From contig OX422192.1 in the NCBI GenBank assembly GCA_949130485.1, positions 4,100,085 to 4,164,084 on the forward strand: a stretch of DNA of 64,000 bases. Direction: 5' to 3'. Below the pieces are notes generated by a model, which ran no database searches, was not told the origin of the DNA, and saw only the letters and a list, made by a program, of their open reading frames with translations. Within the stretch, counting starts at the first letter, position 1, and the number at the start of each line of letters is the position of its first letter. The stretch comes from Agelas oroides (taxonomy: Eukaryota > Porifera > Demospongiae > Agelasida > Agelasidae). Made by a program: the position numbers and the translations under genes. Below, piece by piece: positions 6,103 to 61,329 of the stretch.

Positions 6103-6391
6103 GTTTCCTTGGACTGGTAACCTGGATCCGATTACCATGGGTCACGACCTGGAGACACGGCAATACAGAATCAGTATGATGTGTGCTCTTCGGAGGGTCT
6201 CTGTTTACTCTCGGTCATGCATTGTACAATGGGAGCTGCTTCAGCTTGCGCTGGCCACTCTGGGAACTGCCCTAGCTCTCTACTACCTCGTGGTGTGTCT
6301 CTCCCTGCTGATGGTACAGGAGATCCTACTGTCTATGTTAGTGCTGGTGATGGTGTGCACCTGCCTGAGTGTGATACTAAGACCGTGGAAG
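6103..6391 (+). CDS. NLR exon 1: 5' UTR end plus first hydrophobic leader
   Basis: A pyrimidine-rich acceptor ends at 6102, the start codon at 6137 lies in a strong Kozak context (ATTACCATGG), and a GTAGGT donor follows 6391. The 85 coding codons end in phase 0, which matches the phase-0 start of the next exon at 6540. The start (MG.D.ET) and the W(E/D)..LQL.L.TLG stretch resemble the next exon, so the two look like duplicates. About residues 33-80 are strongly hydrophobic and could form one or two membrane segments or a signal anchor. The 2A motif is absent from this copy, although a shifted frame around 6346-6372 (AGDGVHLPE) may be its remnant. It may be a used alternative first exon or a decayed duplicate; sequence alone does not settle which. 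Confidence 0.5.
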
Positions 6392-9300
6392 GTAGGTGTT
6401 GGCTTGATGTGTAATACCATCATCAATAAAGTTTTGTGCCCTGGGAGTGATTCAAACTGTTTCCTCTCCACATCATGTACAATCAACAGATAATTATAAT
6501 GGACATGTTCATGAGCAGTAGTCTTACCTTCCTCTGCAGGATACCTTGTCACAAAGATCCCATGTGACATGTACCTTCCCCTCCCCCACCATGGGTACTG
6601 ACCAGGAGACGACTAGGAACAAACTCTGTACTGGAGAGTGGGACCACCTCCAGCTTGGGCTGACCACTCTGGGGAGAGTCTACCTGCCAGTGTACATCTT
6701 CTTGCTGCTACTACAGGCCGGGGATGTGGAAAGAAACCCTGGCCCTACACCTGGTAAATGATTGTAAATTTTGAAGCCTATATGCAGGATAATGAGGATA
6801 TCTACATGTAGTATGCAGGATTTCTAAGCTATAACACTACACACCTTTACTGTTGTGTGACTGCATCATTTTGTAGAAACTAACCTCCTGACTCAGTACA
6901 TTCCCCATTATGTGTCAACTATTATAGTCTGTTGAAGTCCTCATACTTGAAGCTTGTATAACTGTACACACTTTACTATGCTTCAATATAGTGTAGCTTT
7001 CAAGGAGGCTAGAGTGAGGAATTTCCCAAACTTTGCTATTCTGGAGGTCAGCGACTCTAGTACCATAGTGTCCCGCAAATACGCCGCCCCCCCCTTTTGC
7101 AACCTTAGCCTTAGTACAAAGCACAGGGGGGGCTTATACGCGGGAAGCAACATTTTCTCTCGTGATTACGCCCTCCCTCGATCGAAAAATGTTTAGCGGT
7201 TCTGTGGATGCTGGCTTCGTTCTTGCACTGCCATTCCACCACGGAGACCTTGAACCGTGTCCATCGTTGCTGCGAGCGGTCCGCGTTTGTGGTAAACACT
7301 TTAACAGTAGACAGCCGAGTGGCTTAAATAAACTTAATATTTCGACTTCGGGATGAGTCTTCTTCAGTACTGTCACTCAGGATCACTGTCATAGTTTTCA
7401 CAGGTTTGTCCTTTCAGCAGACTGTACTTCTGACACCACTCGCAAACACGCTTGCGATCGATCGAGAAATGTTTAACGGTTCTGTGGATGCTGGCTTCAT
7501 TCTTGTGCTGCCATTCCACCATGGAGGCCTTGAACCTGACTGTGTAAGAGTTTTGACGAGGGATAAAAATACCCCTGCAAGACTTTGCGCTAAAAATGCA
7601 GGGGTGGCTTATGCGTGAGGGGGGGCGTATTTGCAGGACACTACGGTATATATATCAACGTGGCTACCTTTTTAACGTACAGCACGTCTTTGATATTGTC
7701 AGATCACTAGCTGTATGTCATAAGCATGCTAATCATTGCTCTGAAGAGCCATGTCATCCATTGACCGATTGACAACAGACTGCATTTGTCAAACATACAA
7801 TTAATTTTCATTGATAATTTACAGGTACGCTGTTTCCTTGTTGCTGTGACATAACACTTTTGTTTAGAGAGTTCATTTTATTTCTGGAAGACCTAAAGGC
7901 ATGTTATAATGTATGTCACAGCCTATTTGTACCATCTCATTGAGTACAACATACACTAGTTGCCAAATGCCTTAGCATGAGGCACATATAATCGTGCAGC
8001 TGTGGTGGGGGTGCGAGTGAGGTCTCAGCCTAAGGTTGTACTTGTATGTTTGTATATATGCATATCGGGTTTACAGTCAAAGTATACGACTTTTGTGTTA
8101 TTTTGTGTATCCCACTACCACATGCATGCACTCTTTGCGACAAACTCCATTTACAAGACAATTACCTTTCTGTATGGCAGAGAAGTACATAAGACAACAG
8201 GAGACTTGTACACTAACAGCTACGTGATACACTTCTCGATGGTATGTGATAAACTTCCCTAACCAGTCTAGCTTGTGATACACCAAGGGGTGGTCACTCC
8301 CTTTAGCACCATATTAACAGAAGCGACTGGGGTTACAATGTGGTCATGAAGTCACTGGAGATTTTTTGGTGTGGTCACAGGGTCACGAGGGCTTTGTCAT
8401 GACTGTTGTAAGGGTCACTGAGCAATGCAGAGTGAAATTCTTACACTATGTGAAATTTAGGCAACACAAATTTTGACCCCAGTCGCAGCTGTTAATATTG
8501 TACTAATGGGAGTGACCACTCCTTGTACACTTCTCGTACCCATGTCTAGTAGCTGGAGGCTTGCATAACCAGACTCAACCCAAGGTCTGGCCACATAAGA
8601 CGAGGCAGGCATAAAAAAGCATCACTGTAGAGAGACTCCTCAATGAAGGCGAGCTTGCTGTTTCCTCAATCTCCCTCCATTTGCTAGACCATGTCTATTC
8701 CCACTGTCCTATACTATCACAGAAGGCCAACTAAGTTGTTTCCACATCTGTGTGAGGCATGATGCACCTTCATATACCTAGTACTTTGCTAAAGTTGACA
8801 CACTGCTAAAGTAACTGAGAGTAGCTGCTTTGTATAGTGGCTGGAATCACAGTTTTATGCAGTGGTGGTGGAAGGCACTTCAGAGTGGGAGGGTTGAATG
8901 GTACCTGCATGCATAAACATTCAGTAGCTAGGGAGATCTGGGAGCATGTCTCGTCTTCCCTTCCCCCTCTTCCTACTCCTCTGGGAAATGTTTTGAAATT
9001 AGATGGCCTGAGATCACTTCTTAGGCACTTTTGGACCACAATTGCCGCTATAGGGTCTTTCCTTCATAGTTCCTGATAAGTAGGACTCTGGTTTATATGT
9101 AGCTACATGGATAAATGCATGGTGAGATGATTAGCTAGTCTGTTTTATGGACATGAAATAATATAGACACGCAAGCCTGTATGCTTAACTTCAACCTTCT
9201 CTAAAGATCTAAATAGAGACTGAAGCCTCTATGCTTAACTTCAACTTTAAGAATCAGACAGTTCAATGTGTGACACCACACACCTGCCCAACTGGAGGTG

Positions 9301-12300
9301 CTATCCCCCTCATCTCTGGAAAGTTGAGGAGGTGGGATCAAGCCTCCTCTGCCCCACCTCCTCTCCCTGTCCACCACCTATGTTATATTCTGAACTAAGT
9401 ACCAATTTTAATCTATCAAAGTGAAACAAGCTGATTTCAACAAGGAGATTGAGAGGCCTTTTCAGAGGAATCATGTAATTTTGTGCTAAGACTGTTGTGT
9501 TAATGCCACAATAAGGGAGAGGTTTTGTCTTCTGTATTTATCCTAGATAACAGCCTGTCATCTATTTGTGCACTAAATGACACAAAGATACTTGATACAG
9601 AAAGGAGAGTAGGTTTTGGTCACCATGTGTCAGGACCTGGTTGGCTATTTCTTGTTGTATACATTGTGGTCAGCGTAGATTTCCCCACAGAAGAAAAGCC
9701 TGGCAAAAGAGAAGGATTTTCTGATTGGTACTGTAGGCAAGCAATCCAGCAAAATCCATTAAATTACTTTACTAGAAACATAATTATGTCTAAATACAGT
9801 CATTCAAATTTACAAAATGATATGGTGTGAATAGTACTTAACTCTTTAACCACCGTAGGCTATTCACTTGATGTCTCTTTTAGGCTATGGATACCTTCTG
9901 TGGTCCGTATTTCCACTTCTGCTTGGAGCTAGTGCTGGAAACTTGAGCCAAAGCTCCTTTGACACATTCTCTGTGGGTGCATGACCCTAACCACAACCAC
10001 TCATTAGCGAGCTTTCGATGGTCAGGGCTTTCTGACCAGCCTGACTAAAAACTGCCTACAGATCTGGAAATGGTGCCCTACAAGGGGAGAGGAGTGGTTT
10101 CTGTGCCCATTTGCTCTAACAAGATGAGAAATGGTCCAGCCAGTGCCGACCAAGGCTGTTCTACAGCCAGTCAAGGCAGCTGCCATGTGCACGGCATGTC
10201 TTGAATATGCACACCCATTCCACCTTTTTTGCTACAGCAAAACCCATCTTCGAAACGGATTGCACCAACTGATAAATAGTCAGACGACGTCAAATGCATT
10301 ATCAGTTGTTAAAGGGTAAACCTCTTTTGGATGTGAAATATTCTTCCACTATTGAACTGCTAGTGCAAATCTTGTGTGTTTCTTTTGTTGTTCTCCACAT
10401 GCAGTACCAATGGCAGACCTTGCAAAGCTAACACACCTTCCAGTGACTGCCAAGTGGCAGAGTCTCGGTCTCAAACTGGGTGTGCCTCCTGACCAACTGG
10501 ACACCATTCAAAGCAACTGTGCTCATTATCCTGACCACACCAATCAATGTCTGACCAATATGTTTGAGTGGTGGTTGAGAAACAGTTGTCAGTCCACCTA
10601 TGAAAGTCTTGCCACGGCACTTAATGCTATAGGCAGGAGGGATCTTGCATTGAAAGTTTGTCAAGAAAACAGTAAGTGAGTATATGTATTTGGGATACCG
10701 TAGAAACTTGGTTAGTAGGTGTATACAGCTATTAAGAGTTATGCATAACTTTAAATAAATAAGTGCATGCTTTCTTCCTGTTGTTATACATATTACTTAT
10801 TTGGCACATCTGCTTGTTGCATGTAACAATAAAATGTGAGTGCATGCAGCACAAAGTCAAAGTTGTCACCGAGTTGATGAAGGTGCCCCACTCGCTAGCA
10901 CCCTGCCCTCCCAAGCTAGCCTTGATGCTAAATCTTGCACAGTAGCTAACTCCCTTCACAAGACACACAGCGAAATCGTCATTATCATTTCTCAGGGCCC
11001 TCCTCACATTACAAAACCTCACCAATGGTTACGGGACCATACTCTCCTGTGTATAGAGTTACCTCAGCTCTTGTGTGTATACACAGCACTTTGTTGAGCT
11101 CAGGTACCTGCAATATGGTAAATAAACAACTAATACGTGCACACTGTATACAACAAGTACAAGCACCTGTTAACCAGTACCTGCAGTTCGTAAAAAGGTA
11201 GTGCTGATCTGCAAGTGTAGCCATACTTGTTCAGTGGCGGAATTAAATTTGGCGGCTAAGTTGCCAATCACCAAACTGTCAAATTACATTTTCTGTCAAT
11301 TTGTGCTATACGGTATTCTAGTTCCTAACTTTGCAAACATGATGCACCCAGCCTGCAGATACTTATATGCTGAAGATCTCTTGGACATTCTTCTCACACA
11401 GTATATGTTCAATAGATACAGTACTCTCCTCTGTTATTAATAGTTATGAACTTCAGACATTCCCTTTTATATATGTACCTCTTTAGATCTCAGCATGATA
11501 CCTGAAACAGCTCCTTCAGCAAGCAACAGTGACCTTCCTGTTAATAGGTATGCAGAGTACCTCAAATCGAAGTACACTTGTAAAACACTACTTGAGGATG
11601 AAAAAAGGCAGTATGCATCCAAAACAGGAACAAAGTACATAAACCTGGCTGTTGTTAGAAAAGACAATATAGACAAATCAGAAATGGACAAATTTACTGA
11701 GGCCACCATACATGGCAATGTTGATGATATACTGAAGAAGAAACAATCACTGGAACTTAGTGAGGTGGGTCGACTGGAAGACGGCTCCCTGGCCAGGTGT
11801 GTCCTAGTGCAGGGAGCTCCTGGGGTTGGAAAGACCACGATGGCATGGGAGCTGTGCAGACAGTGGGGAGGAGGGAAACTGCTCCAAGAATACTCCCTAC
11901 TAGTTCTACTGAAGCTAAGAGACAGTTGTGTGCAAAAGGCTACAGCTGTCACTGATCTGTTCTTTAATTCTGATCGCTACCTCCAGTCAGAGACAGCCAG
12001 AGAGGTCAGCCAGAGTCATGGGAATAGAACTGCATTCCTGTTAGAAGGTTATGATGAGCTTCCAGAAGAGATGCAAGAGAACTCCATATTTGCTCAAGTT
12101 ATCGATGGAGAGATCCTTCCAAAGGCTAGTGTCATTATCACAAGCCGTCCTTCAGCAAGTGATGTCCTATTTAAGCACTGCTGTCAGCAAAGCTACCAAC
12201 ATGTAGAAGTGCTAGGGTTCACAGACAAACAAACAAACAGCTATGTGAAGCAGAGTTTCGGTGATGAACAGTACCAGCATCAGTTTGAATCATATCTTGC

Positions 12301-15300
12301 CTGCTACCCACACATTCGTACATTAATGTTCATCCCGTTGAATTGTTCGATTGTCATTGATGTGTATCGATCCAGCAAGGCAAGGGACAGCATTGTTCCC
12401 AGGACCCAGACAGAACTGTACACTGTTCTCACCAGGATCCTACTCAGCAGGTATCTAACAGCCCATAAAGTACATGGAAAGGAGAGGAGGTGGAACTTAC
12501 ACAGTCTAGCAGATGTTCCTTCAGACGTTGAACGAAACCTCCTGAAACTTTGTGAACTGGCGTATCAAGGCATTGCCCGGCAGCAATTGATCTTTCACAC
12601 CATTCCTTCTGCTCTCGAGACAATGGGACTCATGGACATGGAATATGATGTATTGGAATCAGTTTCATACAACTTTCTTCATTTGACCATACAGGAATTT
12701 CTTGCTGCCTACTATGTATCAAAGCTACCATCATCCCAGCAAGCTGGAATAATTGATGAATATATAGGGAAAAAACATTTTGTTATCGTCTTACGTTTTT
12801 ATGCTGGATTAACGAAGTTTAATATTCAACTTAGTTCTGATAGTTCCTTTTCTTCCCGCCTTTTTAAGTTCCTTAAGGAGCTAGTGACGAGAACACCAGC
12901 AAAGTGTCTTCAAACATACTATAGCCAAAGTAGCAGTAAACTAGAGAGCTTGCGGTGGATGTTTGAAGCCCAAGATAAGCAGCTCCTGAGACATGCACTT
13001 GGCACTGGAACGCAAGACCTTGATCTTTCTCAGCAGATACTAGCTCCATTTGACTGCTATGTTCTAGGCCATTGCATTGCTTACAGTAACTGCCAGTGGA
13101 AACTTGATCTTAGATTCTGCAAGCTTGGAGAAGAGGGCATGAGGATGCTGGCCAGAGGGAGTGGTGACTGTCTCCACAATGTTCAGGAGATCGACCTCAG
13201 TGCGAATGATATGAAGAATGGAGTTACACACCTGGGTAATTGACATGTGTTATCTATTTGTGTTGTAGTTATGGAATTGCGCTACGTACAGGTGGGATAG
13301 TCCCTTTCGTTCAAAGCAAGATTTTTTGCCTTGAAACTCCACAAATATTCTGAATGGTATTAGAGATTGGCTGCAGAAACATGAAGGTTCATTTTTAGGT
13401 TACCATAAGCCAAGGATTTTTGTTGTTGTAGTTATTTACGTGCTGAACTTCACAGTAGACTTGCATCAGATGTGAACAATGCCTTGGGGTGGAAAATGAA
13501 AACTATGTGTATCATACACATGAAACAGCACTGAGACAGAGTAGACACACTTGACAGACTGCTATGATTTAGGAACTCCAGTGTGGATAATTTTGCAGCC
13601 TATAAGAATTCCTCTTTTATCATTTACGTAATTTAGGCTATCCCGTGTTATGCACTTTGGAGAATTCCTTTGAAACTTTGTGTCACTAAAGGTACCATCC
13701 AATCTCCATGGTAAACTGTACAGGTGCAGTTTTATGTGGTCATCTACTACAGTAGCCTGACTAAAACAAGGTTTTATTAGTAACAGTGGAATATTGTGTT
13801 GAATGAACATTCTGTATCCCTAATTTTCATGTGTGAAGCTCCTTGATTATACTCTGTGCACAGTGGTGTTTTTATATCATGTCAAGCAATGGACAATATG
13901 AGAAGGGTGACTAACCACTACATCTTTTCAGCCCTGAAAACATCTCACTAGTTATTCTGCTTGCTCAGAACCCGAGAGCCTAAAGCTTTAGGACCAAAAC
14001 TGAAGTTGTACCATGTAGCTATGGTAAAGCTGTTTATTTACTGTGTCAGATAATCATGATTTCTAGAGTGTGATTGCACTTGAGAGCACAGACCAACATG
14101 ACTGGGGAGCCCATATCTTGCTGGGGTGTTAATTATATTAGCCAAATCATTGTCACCTTGTTAGGTTTGAATTTACAGATCACTTCTTGCTCTGTTGGTT
14201 TAATATCCGAGTATCTTCCACTTGTTTGTTAGCCTCATCCCCAGGCTCTTCATGTAGATGGAAGAGCCTGGTAACATTGGGGGTGTTTACTTCCACTACG
14301 TCATGATTCATGTGATTTACAGTGATCACACCCACTTTTGGACAATTTTCATGTGATTTTTGCGAGGCCATGTGCACAAGTTTTCAAAACGTTTGGGGAG
14401 AAAGACAGAGAAAAGCAGCACAAAACATTAGAACACATTAGGTAAATCGTTTATAAGACTGAGACATTCATGACTTGCTAACCACACAATCACAGCATGA
14501 AGTCTATAAAGTAGGTAAAGTTACGATCTTACTTTAATATGTAGATAAATGTCTAGCCTTACTAGCGGTCTTGGGCATCCTTTTCTTTGAGCTGCCGGAA
14601 GCTTACGGTTTGAACCCCCTGTGTTAGCTACCAGGCTCTTTCCTCCCATGTGAGGAAGAGGAAATGCGCCAGGGAATGAAGCTGCTTCTTTGTTTAGAGG
14701 AGATCACTATATCAAAGGAGATAGTCCTAATTTACTACAAGCGAAGTTCTGTAGAATATTCACTGATGTATATTGGAGATGATTATTAGGAGACAGGTTG
14801 ATGGCCTTATATTTGATGTATCCACAAACAGTACCACCTAGTCATTCTGTCAGCCATGCTTGGCATTTTTACCTCAATGTTTAGCTTCAGGTGGTCAGTC
14901 TAAAGTACAGCCCTGGCCTGGGAAAACAATGCCTGATTACATGTTGTATTTAGCAATTTGTGACAGGTGATTATGTACGAAAGAGGATTGTCCTAACGTC
15001 ACTGTGTTACATGTCCTAAATTTGTTCTGTAGAGCCTGCACTGATAATAAACTGATAATAAAGAGGCTGCCCATGGCCTAATGCATTCACAAACTGTACT
15101 AATCAGTCTTTCCTGTCAGAAAAGTAAATGTGATGTGATTTCTTCAGCATTGAGTTTGACCCAAGTGTTCTGACTTGGCACAAGAGTGCCTAATTAGACG
15201 TCAGAGTTTTTAGCTGGATTTCTGTTCCTAACTAATATCCCTCCACCGTTGTATAATGCCATGCCACCTGCCATTGGGCTGCTCCAGAGTTGGTTTCTGT

Positions 15301-18300
15301 CTGCATGCATGAAATAGAAAGACAAAATAGCTGAAGAGACAAATATCTGCTACTATGACACACTGGTCATGCCCACTATTGTGTAGTTGGTGTAGTTAGT
15401 CATGCATATTTTCAAACCACACTATTATCCTGCAAGTATACTGCTTGAGTCGGAGAGGCTAAAATAAGTCATTCTATAGGCCCCTGCTGTTGCTTACCAC
15501 CTGTAAGAAATATGCTCATGAGGTAAATGTGAACAAATTGCTAGTAGCTTGCTTGTAGTGAAATGGGAATGTGATCATCAGTGTTTGGTTCACACTAGGC
15601 TTGTCTCAATTAGTATAGGTGACCCTTACTGATTACACACTAGCCTAGTGATGATGTGGTATTTGTAATTACACACTCTGTGTGTGTCCTGTTTAACCAT
15701 TGTGTGTGATGATGAATGAAATTTCATTAATATTCTGAGTCAGGTGACTGATGTGGCTTCCCTGAAGATTAGTAGTACCCACTATAGCAGTGTTTGAATT
15801 AGAACAACTGTCACTGTAGAAGATGAGTGTCAGAAATGTGTGTTCCACTGGTGTCTTTGTTTTGCACATTTATATTATGAGATTACATTGCCAGAATTAA
15901 TTAGCTTGGATATAGCACTTGACACAATGACACTATTACAGATGGTAATAGACGAGTCCAGTGTTGAGATTTTAGTGAGTGCATTAGGAGGAACATTGAT
16001 CACTGTGTGTGCATGTTACAACCTTCCTTGTTGTTGGGACATGTCCTCATTGTGTCAGGTGACTTTACTGTCACTTCCATAATGACTGTTGTGTTGTGTC
16101 CTGCTACAGCATCTGTCCTGAGGGGGAACACTGTCCTCACTGTGCTGAGTCTGAGGAGCTGTCATGTTGATGCTGAGGGAACGTCTCACCTGGTGCAGGC
16201 ACTGTGTGACATCACCACACTGAGGGTACTGGACTTCAGTGGGAACACTGTTGACTCACCGGGTGCTAGACACCTTGGTACGTTGAGTGGTGGGGTCTGG
16301 GGTTATGGGCTCACTTGTAACATCAGACTGTGTCAGTGTGCTACATCCGGGAGATGTCTATTGTCCAAAATGTGTCCACAATATCTTGGTATCAGTAGGT
16401 GAACTAGTTGAGTGTCAAACCCATTGTGTTGGCTAGGCAAACAGATGCAGACTCAGAAATACCATACCTGCCTACCATACATGTCACCATGGATACAGAA
16501 ACTCAAGTCTCTAAAATGACATTAAAACTGGACTAGATCATGGCCAAGGTAGTAGTTTCATGATTAACATGGTATTCTTTATTGGATATACAATCTAGAC
16601 GAGGAGTATAAACACAGACATACTCCGCTAGATAATTTACGTACCTGTAGTGTTGCAGAGGGCTCTAGCTGAGTATAGTGCAGTTTTACGTGGTCTTCTA
16701 CTACATTATAGTCTGACTATAAACAAGGTTCTATTAGTAACAATGGAATATTGTGTTGAATGAACATTGTGTATGGGAAGGGTGACTGTTCACTGATTAT
16801 TCTGCTTGTTCAGAACCCGAGAACCTAAAGCTTTAGGGCCAGAACTGAAGTTGTACCATGTAGCTATGGTAAAGCTGTTTATTTACTGTGTCAGATAATC
16901 ATGATTTCTAGAGTGCGATTGCACTTGAGAGCACAGACCAGCATGTCTGGGGAGCCCATATCTTGCTGGGTCATTAATTATAATAGCCAAATCGTTGTCA
17001 CCTTGTTAGGTTGTGAATTTACTGATCACTGCTTGCTACTCTGTTGGTTTAATATCCGAGTATCTTCCACTTGTTAGCCTCATCCCCAGGCTCTTTCATG
17101 TAGATGGAAGATCCTGGTAACATTGGGGGTGTTTACTTCCACTACATCATGATTCATGTGATTTACAGTGATCACACCCACTTTTTCACAATTTTCATGT
17201 GGTTTTTGCGAGGCCATGTGCACAAGTTTTCAAAACGTTTGGGGAGAAAGACAGAGAAAAGCAGCACAAAATGGTAGAACACATTAGGTAAATCGTTTAT
17301 AAGACTGAGACATTCATGACTTGCTAACCACACAATCACAGCATGAAGTCTATAAAGTAGGTAAAGTTACGATCTTACTTTATATGTAGATAAATGTCTA
17401 GCCTTACTAGCGGTCTTGGGCATCCTTTTCTTTGAGCTGCCGGAAGCTTACGGTTTGAACCCCCAGTGTTAGCTACCAGGCTCTTTCCTCCCATGTGAGG
17501 AAGAGGAAATGCGCCAGGGAATGAAGCTGCTTCTTTGTTTAGAGGAGATCACTATATCAAAGGAGATACTCCTAATTTCACCATGCGAGAAGTTCTGTAG
17601 AACATACACTGATGTATATTGGAGAAGATTATTAGGATTAAGAGCCCCAATGTTACCTGTGGCTCTTAATCCTAATAATCATCTCCATGTGTTATGTAAT
17701 GCCATGTGTAAAGTGTTAAGTGCAAGAATAACAGCAATAGCAATGTAATAAAGGCATGTATGTGTACTAGTAACAGCAATAGTAATCACATCTACAAAAC
17801 AATGTGGTCTCCTAGTTTGGGAGAAGAACTGGAGACTCAAAGAGAACTCAACAATCAAAAAGAACTCGACAGTGATCACGATCGTGTGTTGTCGCCGTAA
17901 TTAAAGTGGAACAGATGTTGGGGCACATGCCTGTGGAGATTTCAAGAATTTTGTCGTACTTTCTTGAGCATAAGACTACTATAAAATCACGGATAAACTA
18001 AAGTGTTTGGAGAAAGGTCTTGAAGTACGGTGTACGTATGTGTTTACCGGAAAGCCATCTCATGTTCAAAAATAGCCTCGTAAACAGGCTCCTTTTTTCG
18101 CAGGAGAGGAGTCTGAGTATGAGGCTATTCAGATAGAGTTGTTTCTGAGGAATTACTTAATTGTCTGATATACATTGAAAGTAGCCTCATACCCAGGCTC
18201 CTCCCTTGCTTGGGTACGAGGCTACATTCAAAGATTAATATCAATTTTTGGGGAGGTGGTTCTAATGGGTGAGCGTATTTTGGCATGCTATGCAACAACT

Positions 18301-20234
18301 TAACTTTGCCCCAATAAGGGGGGTGGCCGTATTTTTGTAGGTGGGCATATTTTTGAGAGATTACCTGAGAGCTATACCCACTCTCAATTACACAGTTGGC
18401 AGATATGACTGCCATTGTGATACACAAGACTATGCCTGCCCAATGTGCCGATAACCCAAATTATACATACTTGTTTATAATTGTAGAAGTTTCCAGTTAC
18501 AAGAGTGTGAGGTGTTGAGTCCTCTGTACCTCAATGATACTTTCAAAGTGTGTCCTAGATGACATTCTGGTAGTCCATTGTCCCATTCATTAGTTGCATG
18601 CTCTGAAATGCTAGTCAGAGTCTTTGCAACATATTCTGCACATTTATGACTTATTGTAATGAGTTTCTTGGATCAAGAAATAGCTCTGATATAATTAGAA
18701 TATGCAGGTTTTATAGTGTTGGGAGAAAGAAATACAGGTGTACAGTTTAGCTGTGAGCGGGCAAGTACTGAAAGGAATGTACAAGCTGTGCAAAATGACC
18801 AAATTAGTGTAATTACTTTGACAAGTCCTCTAAATATGTCCACTGTTCATGACACTATCGTTAATGAGATTACATTGCCAGAATTCTTGGATGTGACAGT
18901 GAGAGTATTACAGTAGACGGGTTCAGTGTTGAGATTTCAGTGAGTGCATTAGGAGGAACATTGATCACTGTGTGTGCATGTTCATTGTTACAACCTTCTT
19001 GTTGGAACATGTCCTCATTGTGTCAGGTGACTTTACTGTCACTTCCATAATGACTGTTGTGTTGTGTCCTGCTACAGCATCTGCCCTGAGAGGGAACACT
19101 GTCCTCACTGTGCTGAGACTGGTGAACTGTGGTATTGATGCTGAGGGAACATCTCACCTGGTGCAGGCACTGTATGGCATCACCACACTGGGGGTACTGA
19201 ACTTGAGTGGGAACACTGTTGACTCACGGGGTGCTAGACACCTTGGTAAGTTGAGTGGTGGGGTCTGGGGTTATGGGCTCACTTGTAACATCAGACTGTG
19301 TCAGTGTGCTACATCCAACAGGGAGGTGTCCATTGTCCAAAATGTGTCCAAAATATCTTGGTATCAGTAGGTGAACTGGTTGAGTATCAAACCCATTGTG
19401 TTAGCTGGGCAGACCCACAAATGCAGACTGAGAAATGCCATACCTACTTACAAGGCTTTGTACATGTCACCATCTATACAGAAACTTAAGTTTCTAAAAT
19501 TACACTCTAACTAGATTAGATCATGGCTGAGGTGTTCTGTGGATGCTCCTCTGGTTCACTGGCTCTTGCAGACCACAAAACCAGAGGACTGCATGCAGAC
19601 CCATTACTCATCATCTATTGTCTCATTCTGAGGGTCACCCACCATTGCATTGTGCACACGTGAGTGTATGTTTGCTTGCTTGCTTGGACCGACCACTTAC
19701 TGTAAATTTTAAATGAGTGCATTCAAATATTTCATGAAGATCGATATCATGCATAAAGCATGTGAAGGCCAGTGGAGGGCTACAGTCAGAATGCAGCGTT
19801 GGGGACCCGGAGCAAAGATGACTGAAGTTGAAGCACACATTGCACTGGTTTGTGCTTCTACCAACAACGGCAGGCCGCTCACAGGTGGTACAAATGTATA
19901 TGGACGGTGGTTGAGTGGGTCGCTTCAGGTAGCCGGCGGGTCATGCATAAGCAGCATAAATGCAAGAAATTTAGCTCATGATTTCGGTGTAAAGCTTACT
20001 CCATGCTTGTGTAGCCACGTTAGCTGCCCTGATACTTATATTTATCTCTGGTGAGGACTTAGCTACTTATATGCGTTTATTAAATTTGGCTTAACAGTCA
20101 ACAGTGACAAATCTTGCTTGTGCCACGACCATAGTAAATCAGCAGTTTGCTGCTTGCTCAGGCTCACCCCATGATGATGAATCATCTCACTAGTTAACCC
20201 TCGGCGCGCATGCGCCGTAGGGTTACAGTAGTCG

Positions 20235-22914: not shown

Positions 22915-23154
22915 TTGGGGCGAGCCTGAGCGAGTCCCACACTAGCGAGTCGAACGGTGAATTTTTCATACATATATATATATATACGTCGTACGTCGTT
23001 CCGTAAATGTAAGTTGACTCTTTTAACCCGAAACATTGCGCACGCCGAGTTCAAGTGCGGACGGAATATCGAAAAGAACACTTGGTCTAGTCTAGAGCCC
23101 TACTTCTGAGTTTTGATCCACCCTCAGTGTTTTAGGCTACAAGTTTTGTTGAAC
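22915..23154 (+). mobile_element. Helitron-like 5' end region (copy 1)
   Basis: Begins with ATTGGGGCGAGCCTGAGCGA, an end motif seen at five or more other places, then a short AT repeat and the leader CGTCGTACGTCGTTCCGTAA shared with 28680. Leads into the ORF fragment at 23155. Confidence 0.5.
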
Positions 23155-28009: not shown

Positions 28010-28501
28010 TTACACGAGGCTCACTTGCTCGAGACGGGCCACTCGCTGATATGGAGTCTCATAAGTCAGTCTCCTCTGTTGCGCAAGGCTCATTTGCTCG
28101 AGACGGGCCTCTCTCTGATCCGGAGTCTCATGGGTCAGTCTCATCTGTTGTGCAATGCTCATTTGCTCGAGACGGGCCTCTCTCTGATCCGGAGTCTCAT
28201 GGGTCAGTCTCATCTGTTGCGCAAAGCTCATTTGCTGGAGACGACTTGTTCTCTGGTCTGGAGTCTCTGACGCTAATCGCCCTCTCCTGTAATCCAAAAC
28301 TCTCTCCCGCTGGGCAGCAGACCGCGAAGCACGATGGGCTCTATCCCTTACTCTCCGTCTCGCTAACCGTGCCTCCCTTTGTTGAGCGCTTTCAGCAGCG
28401 CGACGATCCCTGTCGCGTTGATTTCTACGCCTTAGCCTTTCTCTCTTCTTTCTTCGGACTCCATAAGTGAGTCGTACATACAACTTCTTTCTGGCTTTCA
28501 A
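28010..28501 (-). pseudogene. Helitron-like protein, N-terminal arginine/glutamate repeat region (fragment)
   Basis: A 163-residue open frame on the minus strand has a basic start (RRKKRERLRRRNQRDRDRR), then RRAAES.QQREARLARRRVRDRA, then three to four 23-residue repeats of the form ETPDQREARLEQMS(F/I/L)AQQ. This highly charged repeat precedes the replicase/helicase region in large Helitron-like proteins of sponges, cnidarians and arthropods. The rest of the protein is absent: nothing similar continues below 28010. The 69-bp repeat unit is visible in the DNA at 28025-28260. Its 5' flank (28505-28680) matches the 5' flanks of the fragments at 27060-27437 and 35772-36345. Probably a 3'-truncated or non-autonomous copy. 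Confidence 0.55.
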
Positions 28502-28504
28502 ACG

Positions 28505-28690
28505 TAGCTAGCTTAGCTGTATCTTAGCTGTATCTTGGAAATATTGCATCATGCACAAATAGGGCAGAATGCATATACGGAATACACACGTACCATAAAT
28601 AAATAAATAGACAAATTTTCGTTCGTTTTATCCACAAGTAGTACAGTGTGGGGCTCGCTGCGCTCGCCCCAATTATCCGTCGTACGTCGT
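28505..28690 (-). mobile_element. Helitron-like 5' region (copy 3), head-to-head with copy 4
   Basis: Same elements as 27240-27400: GGCAGAATGCATATACGGAA, an AAATAAAT tract, then GGGGCTCGCTGCGCTCGCCC. It abuts the plus-strand leader starting about 28680 with no spacer. Confidence 0.55.
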
Positions 28691-28921
28691 TCCGTAAATG
28701 CAAGTTGACACTCTTTTAACCCGAAACATTGCGCACGCCGAGTACAGGTGCGGACAGAATATCGAAAAGAACACGTGGTCAAAGCAGATTGTGCGAATAC
28801 TCTATAGACTGCACAAGTTTAGGGTCCAACTTCAGAGCTCTAACCCAGAGTTCTCCAGCGTTGGTTTTTTTCAGAGCTCTAACCCAGAGTTCTTCTGCGT
28901 TTTAGACGCAAGTCTCTTGAA
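28675..28921 (+). mobile_element. Helitron-like 5' leader (copy 4)
   Basis: CGTCGTACGTCGTTCCGTAA ... TTTTAACCCGAAACATTGCG as at 22985, with an inserted ~37-bp direct repeat of TCAGAGCTCTAACCCAGAGT. Leads to the frameshifted ORF at 28922. Confidence 0.5.
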
Positions 28922-33440: not shown

Positions 33441-33623
33441 GCAAGCTGAAGTCATTTTGTAATCTAGTTAGTTGCTGGTCATATAACCCACCTAGATATG
33501 AAGTATACTTGATGGTTAAAACACTAGCTGGTGTTTGCCAGCTAGTGTTTTAACCATCAAATACTTCATATGACTTAGAACACTAGCCACTGATATTCAA
33601 TTGTCAACTTTCACATTTCAAAT

Positions 33624-33980
33624 TTGCTTGTTATAGTCATTTACATGCATATAGTACACATACAATGTTTACTGCGAGTTGATGGTAGCACTTTGGCTGG
33701 TGTCTTCTTAACATCCTCCTTTTGTGTTGTGCCTGAGTCTTCATATTCCTCCAACGAAGCAAGTGGCAGCCTATTGGTAGCTTGGTATACTCAAACTCTA
33801 GTAGCACCGAGTCAACAGTGCATGGCTTCATTCCAAAACTTCTGCACTAGAGGTGGCCACAGAACTGGCGGTTGTTCAGCTCCACAGACCCCTATGCGTT
33901 TGTTTCAAACCGATTTTGACTATAGCTACTCACCATCAAAGAGTTCTGTAATGGGGTCTTACGACTCAATACTCTGGTGA
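33624..33980 (+). CDS. Unrecognised ORF kept open in two copies
   Basis: An open frame of 118 codons (MLVIVIYMHIVHIQ...) with an inverted second copy at 60550-60903. Between copies there is one in-frame 3-nt deletion and about five amino-acid changes, with no stops. I recognise no domain. The whole surrounding 1.7 kb is duplicated at similar identity and other frames here are also open in both copies, so coding is not shown. Possibly part of an unrecognised mobile element. Confidence 0.15.
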   Translation: MLVIVIYMHIVHIQCLLRVDGSTLAGVFLTSSFCVVPESSYSSNEASGSLLVAWYTQTLVAPSQQCMASFQNFCTRGGHRTGGCSAPQTPMRLFQTDFDYSYSPSKSSVMGSYDSILW

Positions 33981-42080: not shown

Positions 42081-42530
42081 TCAGGCACCTCCCATACTTC
42101 TGTAAAGTCCTGGGGTAGCGATGCACAAAGGTCTTGTATAGGTGCTACAGAGTTTTTGGTATACGTATCCCTGTCTAAGCAATCTGGTTGTGAGTAGTTT
42201 AGATCTGTAAGCAAAATCTTGGTAATTACAACATATCCTCAAATATCGAACTAACTGTGAAATTACTACTCCGTATGCAGGTTTTGAGGGTATGTTGCTA
42301 TCCATGTGTGGAAAATTGACTATTGAAAAGCTGAAGGTATCCCTCTTATCATACAAGTCTGTGCAATACTTACCGTTCAGGACCTTAATGTTAAGATCCA
42401 GGTAGGAACAGCTGTCATGGCTCTCTGTAGTTTTCTTAAGCTCTAATTCTGGGGGGTAAATTTGGCCTATGCATGCTTGAAAATCAGGGTTGTTAAGTGT
42501 AAGCAAGTCATCAATATATATGCACGCCCT
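42081..42530 (-). pseudogene. Reverse transcriptase C-terminal fragment, Penelope-like
   Basis: On the minus strand the frame opens at about 42530 with IYIDDLLTLNNP, which holds the catalytic Y-x-D-D motif of reverse transcriptase, then runs about 140 codons to 42081. Recognisable blocks are YLDLNIKVLNGK, TDLYDKRDTFSFSIVNFPH, YGVVISQLVRYLRIC and SKLLTTRLLRQGY. These match the palm-end and thumb region of a family of animal retroelements, probably Penelope-like (from memory). An in-frame stop lies just upstream of the IYIDD, so the 5' part is lost, and the C-terminus decays before any nuclease domain can be seen. The hammerhead ribozyme at 41637-41699 lies downstream on the same strand, as expected for Penelope-like elements. 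Confidence 0.6.
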
Positions 42531-46468: not shown

Positions 46469-46797
46469 TTATGAGACTAGCCTTGCCAGACATTTGACAT
46501 TCTCAATGTCACCAGCAAGGTCAGAAAGTTCTATGTCACGTAAGACCTTCACAAGGGTTGCCCATGTAACTGGCTGCTTGCCTCTTCCAGTCAGCCATTC
46601 TTGGAGGATTTCTGTGTTGATTTGTTCAGCATCGTAGTGGTGTTTGTGGGCAATGATTTTGACCCTTGATCCATTTCTGTCATCTAGGAGAAAAGTTCCA
46701 AACTTTACATACTTGGTTGCTATTTCCACAGCAATGTTGACTACTCTTTTGTCACTACACGTGAACTTCAGTAGTTCTGTTAGGGTGAGTTTGGTAC
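46469..46797 (-). CDS. Death-domain exon, probable 3' terminal exon of another gene or gene fragment
   Basis: On the minus strand an acceptor (ACACACATGCAG) precedes 46797, and 109 codons then run open to a stop at 46469-46471, entering in phase 1. The protein begins TKLTLTELLKFTCSDKR and has a Death-fold pattern: ATKYVKFGTFLLDD, then AHKHHYDAEQINTEILQEWL, then PVTWATLVKVLRDIELSDLA. It resembles a recurrent Death-domain family I associate with sponge and cnidarian proteins (from memory, not searched). No NACHT or leader exon was recognised upstream on the minus strand. The decayed hAT element at 46918-48829 begins 120 bp upstream of the acceptor and would sit in the preceding intron. It may be the last exon of a Death-domain gene extending to higher coordinates, or a relic. 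The open frame across 109 codons argues against long decay. Confidence 0.6.
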
Positions 46798-46917
46798 CTG
46801 CATGTGTGTTAGTCAGGGACAGCAAACATTGCAGTAGCTCCTTCTATGACCAGTTGGAGGGTAATTAAAATGTGAACAATGTTAATGCATGCTATGGCAA
46901 CAAGAATGTATAATAAC

Positions 46918-60549: not shown

Positions 60550-60903
60550 TCACCAGAGTATTGAGTCGTAAGACCCCATTACAGAACTGTTTGATGGTGA
60601 GTAGCTATAGTCTAAATCAGTTTGAAACCAACGCATAGGGGTCTGTGGAGCTGAACAACCGCCAGTTCTTTGGCCACCTCTAGTGCAGAAGTTTTGGAAT
60701 GAAGCCATGCACTGTTGACTCGGTGCTACTAGAGTTTGAGTATACCAAGCTACCAATAGGCTGCCACTTGCTTCGTTGGAGGAATATGAAGACTCAGGCA
60801 CAACACAAAAGGAGGATGTTAAGACACCAGCCAAAGTGCTACCATCAACTTGCAGTAAACATTGTATGTGTACTATATGCATGTAGATGACTATAACAAG
60901 CAA
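60550..60903 (-). CDS. Unrecognised ORF, inverted duplicate of 33624-33980
   Basis: 117 codons, nearly identical to the plus-strand copy at 33624-33980 apart from one lost codon and a few substitutions. No known domain. See that entry for why coding is doubtful. Confidence 0.15.
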   Translation of the reverse strand: MLVIVIYMHIVHIQCLLQVDGSTLAGVLTSSFCVVPESSYSSNEASGSLLVAWYTQTLVAPSQQCMASFQNFCTRGGQRTGGCSAPQTPMRWFQTDLDYSYSPSNSSVMGSYDSILW

Positions 60904-61329
60904 ATTTGAAATGTGAAAGTTGACAATAAAAAATTGAATATCAGTGGCTAGTGTTCTAAGTCATATGAAGTACTTGATGGTTAAAACACTAGCTGGCAAC
61001 TTAACACTAGCTGGCAAATTTAGAACACTAGCTGGCAAATACCAGCTAGTGTTTTAACTATCAAGTATACTTCGTATCTAGGTGGGTTATATGACCAGCA
61101 ACTAACTAGATTACATGCAAAATGACTTCAGCTATGGTCTAAATGGAAGTAGAAACTGCTGCACTTGCAAACTAGCTACATGTCCTCAGCGTGGGAGTCC
61201 TCACATACACTTTCATTTACATTATCTAGCAATACATACCTTATAATACTTCTCCTGGAAACATGCACATCCCCTTGATGTTTTGCATTATACCACCTGA
61301 CTTCGGCTGTTGCCGTCTTCATCTTGTTA

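Follow-up and report, generated by a model that had tools for sequence, protein, structure and literature searches.

Why should a gene with the layout of an NLR carry a 2A ribosome-skipping (StopGo) core upstream of its Death domain, and what would such a gene produce? We examined this for a 64,000-nucleotide stretch of the Agelas oroides genome (C10:4100085-4164084; hereafter the window), with searches extended to the genome as a whole (259 Mb, 141 contigs).

A predicted two-exon leader ending in a 2A core

A first-pass annotation of the window had pointed to GDVERNPGP right after a hydrophobic run, and the motif is indeed present at 6720-6746 on the forward strand, in frame within an open reading frame and immediately preceded by the hydrophobic run VYLPVYIFLLLLQAG. 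Its DVERNPGP is the sole match to D(V/I)ExNPGP when the window is translated in all six frames, and it conforms to the broader StopGo core pattern (D/G/C/N)(V/I)ExNPGP. A chance motif can be ruled out: residue frequencies predict 3.5e-5 D(V/I)ExNPGP matches per window and the reversed-pattern control gives none genome-wide, for either the Val-type or the Ile-type core. The pattern was also absent from 100 sequences simulated with an order-2 Markov model. The hexapeptide ahead of the core, LLLQAG, resembles the LLLLSG-like class of StopGo contexts, and the predicted skip falls between Gly 6741-6743 and Pro 6744-6746. Without splicing, the frame of this exon continues as TPGK and then stops; instead of the retroelement frame that follows the 2A in non-LTR retrotransposons, a donor comes next and then a Death-domain exon.

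Table 1 Features of the window gene and the evidence for each.
Feature	Position	Strand	Evidence or remark
Leader exon 1, ATG at 6137, phase 0 donor	6137..6391	+	open and conserved in five C10 copies
Leader exon 2 with the 2A, phase 1 donor CTG|GTAAAT	6540..6753	+	acceptor and donor conserved in five copies
LLLLQAG, Leu-rich context ahead of the 2A core	6702..6722	+	resembles published LLLLSG-like StopGo class
2A/StopGo core DVERNPGP	6723..6746	+	canonical motif
Death-domain exon, first recognised domain past the 2A exon	10405..10671	+	PF00531, E 2.8e-9
NACHT exon, NACHT ~11795-12265, HD2-like after	11487..13235	+	PF05729, E 7.8e-22
Open frame with LRR stretch, candidate part of same transcript	15968..16402	+	LRR_6, E 6.6e-7
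Open frame with second LRR stretch, candidate part of same transcript	18933..19370	+	LRR_6, E 1.4e-4, under curated cut-off

The predicted junction 6391|6540 is in phase 0 and would join the first exon in frame, giving a leader of 153 residues over two exons, counted through the Gly of the skip site. The first exon adds two further hydrophobic segments, so that the leader has three hydrophobic stretches in total; hydropathy places the exon 1 stretch at about residues 34-85, and 19-residue windows scoring above 1.6 begin at residues 34-67 and, further on, at 124-125. The hydrophobicity adjoining the core is weak evidence for membrane insertion, since it is partly a property of this class of 2A. 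Four tandem copies on C10 (L002-L005) accompany the window gene, the five being 88-89% identical over the motif exon. Exon 1, the acceptor and the 2A exon are kept in their alignment while the short intron between varies in length, and the leader translates without a stop in all five. The ATG at 6591 is AAG in L004 and L005, thus translation in these two copies must start further upstream.

Downstream, the annotated phase match also held: the donor after 6753 is in phase 1 and so is the acceptor before 10405, with G|TA CCA ATG GCA GAC reading across the predicted join. The next predicted junction, 10671|11487, is likewise in phase 1. As had been proposed, the first domain after the 2A is a Death domain and the next a NACHT domain, and Death, NACHT and LRR follow in NLR order on one strand; an NLRC4_HD2 match in the NACHT exon (E 3.3e-5) lies under its cut-off. 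With the predicted joins, the product measures 675 residues from the Pro of the skip site to the end of the NACHT exon; if the two LRR frames (near 16.1 and 19.1 kb) belong to it, the length could come close to the 802 residues given in the first-pass annotation.

The 3.6 kb intron between leader and Death domain is long, and the Death exon has an ATG of its own (10410) in a good ACCAATGG context, both in the window and in the related locus L062. The Death exon could therefore be translated from a transcript begun within this intron, the leader belonging to a minor or separate transcript. We consider this improbable. The acceptor, donor and frame of the Death exon are kept in both L061 and L062, yet L061 has no such ATG and thus needs a start further upstream. 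A hidden extra exon in the intron also appears unlikely from L061 and L062, in both of which the leader and Death exons are kept: the L062 intron is mostly alignable to that of the window as well, but the L061 intron has one further shared stretch only, of 79 aligned columns (about 8773-8849 in the window).

Coupling of 2A cores to Death domains across the genome

The genome contains 283 canonical D(V/I)ExNPGP cores, 179 of the Val type and 104 of the Ile type. For positional comparisons we used 229 listed 2A places (200 by pattern and 29 by alignment to the window motif exon) and at least 477 distinct Death-like places among the matches listed for four Death queries. On the same strand, 139 of the 229 2A places are followed by a Death-like place within 6 kb, and in the reverse view a listed 2A precedes 144 of the 477 Death-like places by no more than 6 kb, proportions that do not estimate the share of all Death domains having a leader. 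Controls at the same distance gave one 2A place with a Death-like place upstream on the same strand and none on the opposite strand, and one Death-like place with a 2A downstream and none with a 2A on the other strand. At 10 kb, the counts of 229 were 148 downstream, 10 upstream and none in either opposite-strand arrangement. The pattern-listed places alone gave 119 of 200 at 6 kb, and contigs C1-C3, for which the motif listing is complete, gave 101 of 167 downstream against 1, 0 and 0. Since 2A loci supplied three of the four Death queries, the list of Death-like places is tilted towards 2A-linked types, and the contrast of strand and direction is the sole part of the coupling free of this bias. 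This directional coupling at 139 of 229 places also argues against initiation at the Death exon's own ATG.

No listed Death-like place occurs within 10 kb of 81 of the 229 places, a number to be read together with L068 (C11:1362746) and L076 (C3:15626547), which are among the 81 and nevertheless show a Death domain on reading. With at least these two of the 81 carrying a Death domain, the Death-coupled count is a lower bound. At L074, one of six further loci from a random draw, inspection by eye of 5 kb showed no clear Death frame.

Coupling to NACHT domains is weaker than coupling to Death domains. Among 105 scored NACHT places, drawn from 314 candidates, eight are preceded on the same strand by a listed 2A no more than 6 kb away, and none has one in the other three arrangements; within 20 kb, the 2A lies upstream of 17 and downstream of three. 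For most of the scored NACHT places, then, no such leader is seen.

At five loci (L031, L076, L077, L078 and L081) a single frame without interruption spans the leader, core and Death domain, the last two being just a few residues apart, and no splicing is needed there to join them, which further weakens the case for separate starts. Their Pfam Death matches have E values of 1.5e-4, 5e-4 (under the curated cut-off, as is the first), 2.9e-5, 3.6e-3 (also under it) and 4.1e-7, respectively; L031 aligns with Death members above the cut-off, and by eye L077 and L078 resemble L031. L053, L079 and L080 are likewise single frames, but there the core and the Death domain stand about 38-60 residues apart, and the spacer could be an unspliced intron.

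What comes after the Death domain differs between loci. A NACHT domain (E 2.5e-22) is found downstream in L076, and L068 and L069 carry NACHT places at C11:1367975 and C2:938204; an LRR frame follows in L065, ankyrin repeats in L063 and, by eye, ankyrin-like repeats in L064, L070 and L071. As the bodies are either NACHT/LRR or ankyrin repeats, the leader associates with the Death domain and not with the NLR body.

Retention of the core in diverged leaders

We also searched for two leader families using only the stretch upstream of the core. In the first family, 61 of 63 leaders are followed by a listed 2A place; pattern matches only give a canonical core in at least 58 of the 63, four more cores are known solely from alignments running through the core, and one leader, C1:3098137, has no listed core on a fully listed contig. 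In the second, a listed 2A follows 67 of 79 leaders, and C5:5480741 and C10:850974 bring this to at least 69; the remaining 10 of 79 without a listed core comprise eight on fully and two on incompletely listed contigs. Of the 63 and 79 leaders, 61 and 71, respectively, are followed by a Death-like place within 10 kb. First-family members other than the query share 47-71% leader identity, and by simple arithmetic seven fixed core positions drifting at that rate would stay intact in roughly 0.5-9% of cases. The presence of the 2A in these leaders is therefore more than a search artefact.

The context of the core is retained as well. In all 54 scored leaders the hexapeptide contains a hydrophobic residue and ends in (A/S/C)G, for example LLLMSG, LLLLSG and LLVIAG; these 54 came from 60 distinct loci after five flagged as retroelement-like and one too short were left out, and still include the retroelement-like L056. 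Upstream open frames at the other full-length fetched loci are mostly 120-165 residues long, measured as frame length and not from a start codon. In the five tandem copies, four codon columns of LLLLQAGDVERNPGP vary synonymously and none in amino acid, compared to 16 synonymous and 31 amino-acid-varying columns elsewhere in the leader (Fisher p 0.019). With all pairs added up, exon 1 has a pN/pS of 0.44 and the part of exon 2 ahead of the core 0.61, against 0 from LLLLQAG to the core end, values for which the pairs are non-independent and the codon ranges shifted by one codon.

These results bear on the idea that the 2A exon is a functionless relic, picked up by chance, of a non-LTR retrotransposon with its own 2A. 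The same genome does hold retroelement-like 2A copies (L026 and L057-L060 by rule, L056 by eye) with the same core and a Leu-rich lead, like the 2A retrotransposons named in PMC4981915. However, in the six copies read a zinc-finger-like CxxC stretch follows the core and no Death domain, and all six fall among the 81 places with no listed Death within 10 kb. Constraint on the core, its retention in diverged leaders and coupling to Death domains are unexpected of relics, and we regard this origin as very improbable.

Proposed products of the leader genes

From the observed sequence, frame, conservation and genome-wide coupling we infer splicing in the window gene, skipping, its efficiency and the locations of the products. 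Our favored reading, which we hold to be probable though far from certain, is that one mRNA yields two proteins split by a working StopGo element, a membrane leader and a free Death-NACHT-LRR receptor. Ribosomes would translate the hydrophobic leader, which is probably membrane-inserted, skip the Gly-Pro bond at the core, and continue into a leaderless receptor beginning with Pro; a minority of ribosomes failing to skip would produce a receptor still tethered to the leader. Well over a hundred further places have this leader-2A-Death module at their head, and the bodies that were read there are of the NACHT/LRR or ankyrin-repeat kind. The free receptor proposed in the first-pass annotation thus gains support from the canonical core, its Leu-rich context, core constraint and the genome-wide Death coupling, whereas a second, membrane- or secretion-directed form arising from frequent failed skipping goes beyond these observations.

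How often skipping would succeed can be judged from assayed elements. In a study of viral StopGo motifs (PMC12846837), a Leu-rich class ending in (A/S/C)G before Asp comprises motifs 2 and 6, and the wild-type examples of motifs 1, 3, 4 and 6 that were assayed supported StopGo in vitro at about 92.7% to almost 100%, motif 6 being Leu-rich. The sponge elements share the D(V/I)ExNPGP core and the Leu-rich hexapeptide ending in (A/S/C)G with these, but belong to a cellular multigene family and sit near the N-terminus. Because the window hexapeptide resembles the Leu-rich class whose assayed motif supported StopGo, we expect mostly separate products for the window gene, a hydrophobic leader and a Pro-starting receptor.

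N-terminal 2A sequences on NLRs are already known from sea urchin, and this precedent for dual targeting is as the first-pass annotation described it. According to Roulston et al. 2016 (PMC4981915), SpNLR2A proteins are of the Death-NACHT-LRR type and begin with a hydrophobic lead and a 2A, the 26-residue signal-like leader yields about equal amounts of both forms (SpNLR2A6), and the sea urchin genome also contains 2A retrotransposons. If the predicted splice join is made, the window gene likewise encodes an NLR with a 2A near its N-terminus, and its leader has hydrophobic segments; partial skipping could then give a leader-bearing form, exocytic or membrane-bound, and a cytosolic form in comparable amounts, with both of them mattering. 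We think this unlikely, though to be taken seriously. The 26-residue leader is itself the signal sequence in SpNLR2A, whereas here it is 153 residues in two exons with three hydrophobic stretches; in the sponge the leader goes with the Death domain, ankyrin-repeat proteins included; and the assayed viral motifs are nearly fully active. Since this leader is a long polypeptide with three hydrophobic stretches in place of a short signal peptide, two separate products per mRNA are at least as likely as dual targeting.

A more tentative extension, which we put forward as possible but doubtful, is that the leader is a partner protein and more than a targeting label. Well over a hundred genes would then each encode two proteins, a cytosolic Death sensor of the NLR or ankyrin type being co-translated 1:1 with its own small membrane protein. 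Such an arrangement would be an immune module resembling an operon, and its membrane part could hold or guard the sensor or report to it. The system makes it possible to test directly whether cellular StopGo is used for dual targeting or for making two partners together. If skipping works at these loci, StopGo would be a routine step in making an immune repertoire.

As far as our searches go, the long multi-segment leader, the coupling to Death domains in both NLR and ankyrin proteins and the scale within one genome are new; we found no report of 2A on sponge NLRs in the open-access literature, where apparent matches proved false. Sponge NLRD proteins, for example of Dysidea avara, have the same Death-NACHT-LRR order, and transmembrane domains are reported in sponge NLR architectures; the part of that source available to us (PMC12909245) makes no mention of a ribosome-skipping leader. 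Gene predictors would call leader-2A proteins membrane-bound or overlook the leader, and transmembrane NLRs may therefore deserve re-inspection: it is our guess that some of those reported, the sponge ones in PMC12909245 included, may be 2A-leader proteins.

The two leader exons and their relatives

The two leader exons of the window (6137-6753) resemble each other, with MGHDLET...QLALATLG in one matched by MGTDQET...QLGLTTLG in the other, and judging from this likeness they look like diverged copies of one another, the 2A being present only in the second. A stretch of exon 2 (6639-6675) also aligns with positions 255-291 of another genomic locus, L061 (86% over 37 nt), which lie upstream within the L061 leader. 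Elsewhere in the same genome, a full-length leader of the second family, found by the stretch upstream of the core only (C1:4240379-4240747), had no canonical core behind it among the cores listed, making it a candidate for a natural non-skipping or variant-core copy.

Sequences following 2A cores and Death domains in other loci

In loci L026 and L056-L060 the 2A core is followed by a zinc-finger-like CxxC stretch, and these loci are apparently non-LTR retroelements with the same skipping motif. By eye, a common stretch with words like FGCGCGKCTFFSFIERGCP follows Death in L063, L064, L066, L070 and L071, and the genes sharing it are of the ankyrin type and of the cluster on contig C3.

Repeats and additional frames in the window

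Repeats and reading frames of the window
Feature	Position	Strand	Details
MITE-like element	7061-7648		2A-Death intron; inverted repeats 30 nt, 90% complementary, 528 nt apart
Inverted repeat	8284-8525		2A-Death intron; arms 59 nt, 85% complementary
STPR-repeat frame	28013-28507	minus	PF21107, E 5.1e-36
Highly similar frame pair	33594-33980; 60550-60960	plus; minus	opposite orientation, about 27 kb apart
YIDD frame	42081-42530	minus	contains YIDD word
Weak Death-domain match	46472-46843	minus	E 0.0016, below cut-off

The MITE-like element contains a direct repeat. On sequence similarity, the frame pair is a dispersed repeat; its plus-strand member had no Pfam match, and neither did the frame containing YIDD, a word that occurs in reverse transcriptases. 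Arg-rich frames at 23110, also without a Pfam match, and at 28883 are similar in look to the STPR frame. The weak Death-domain match is perhaps another Death gene.
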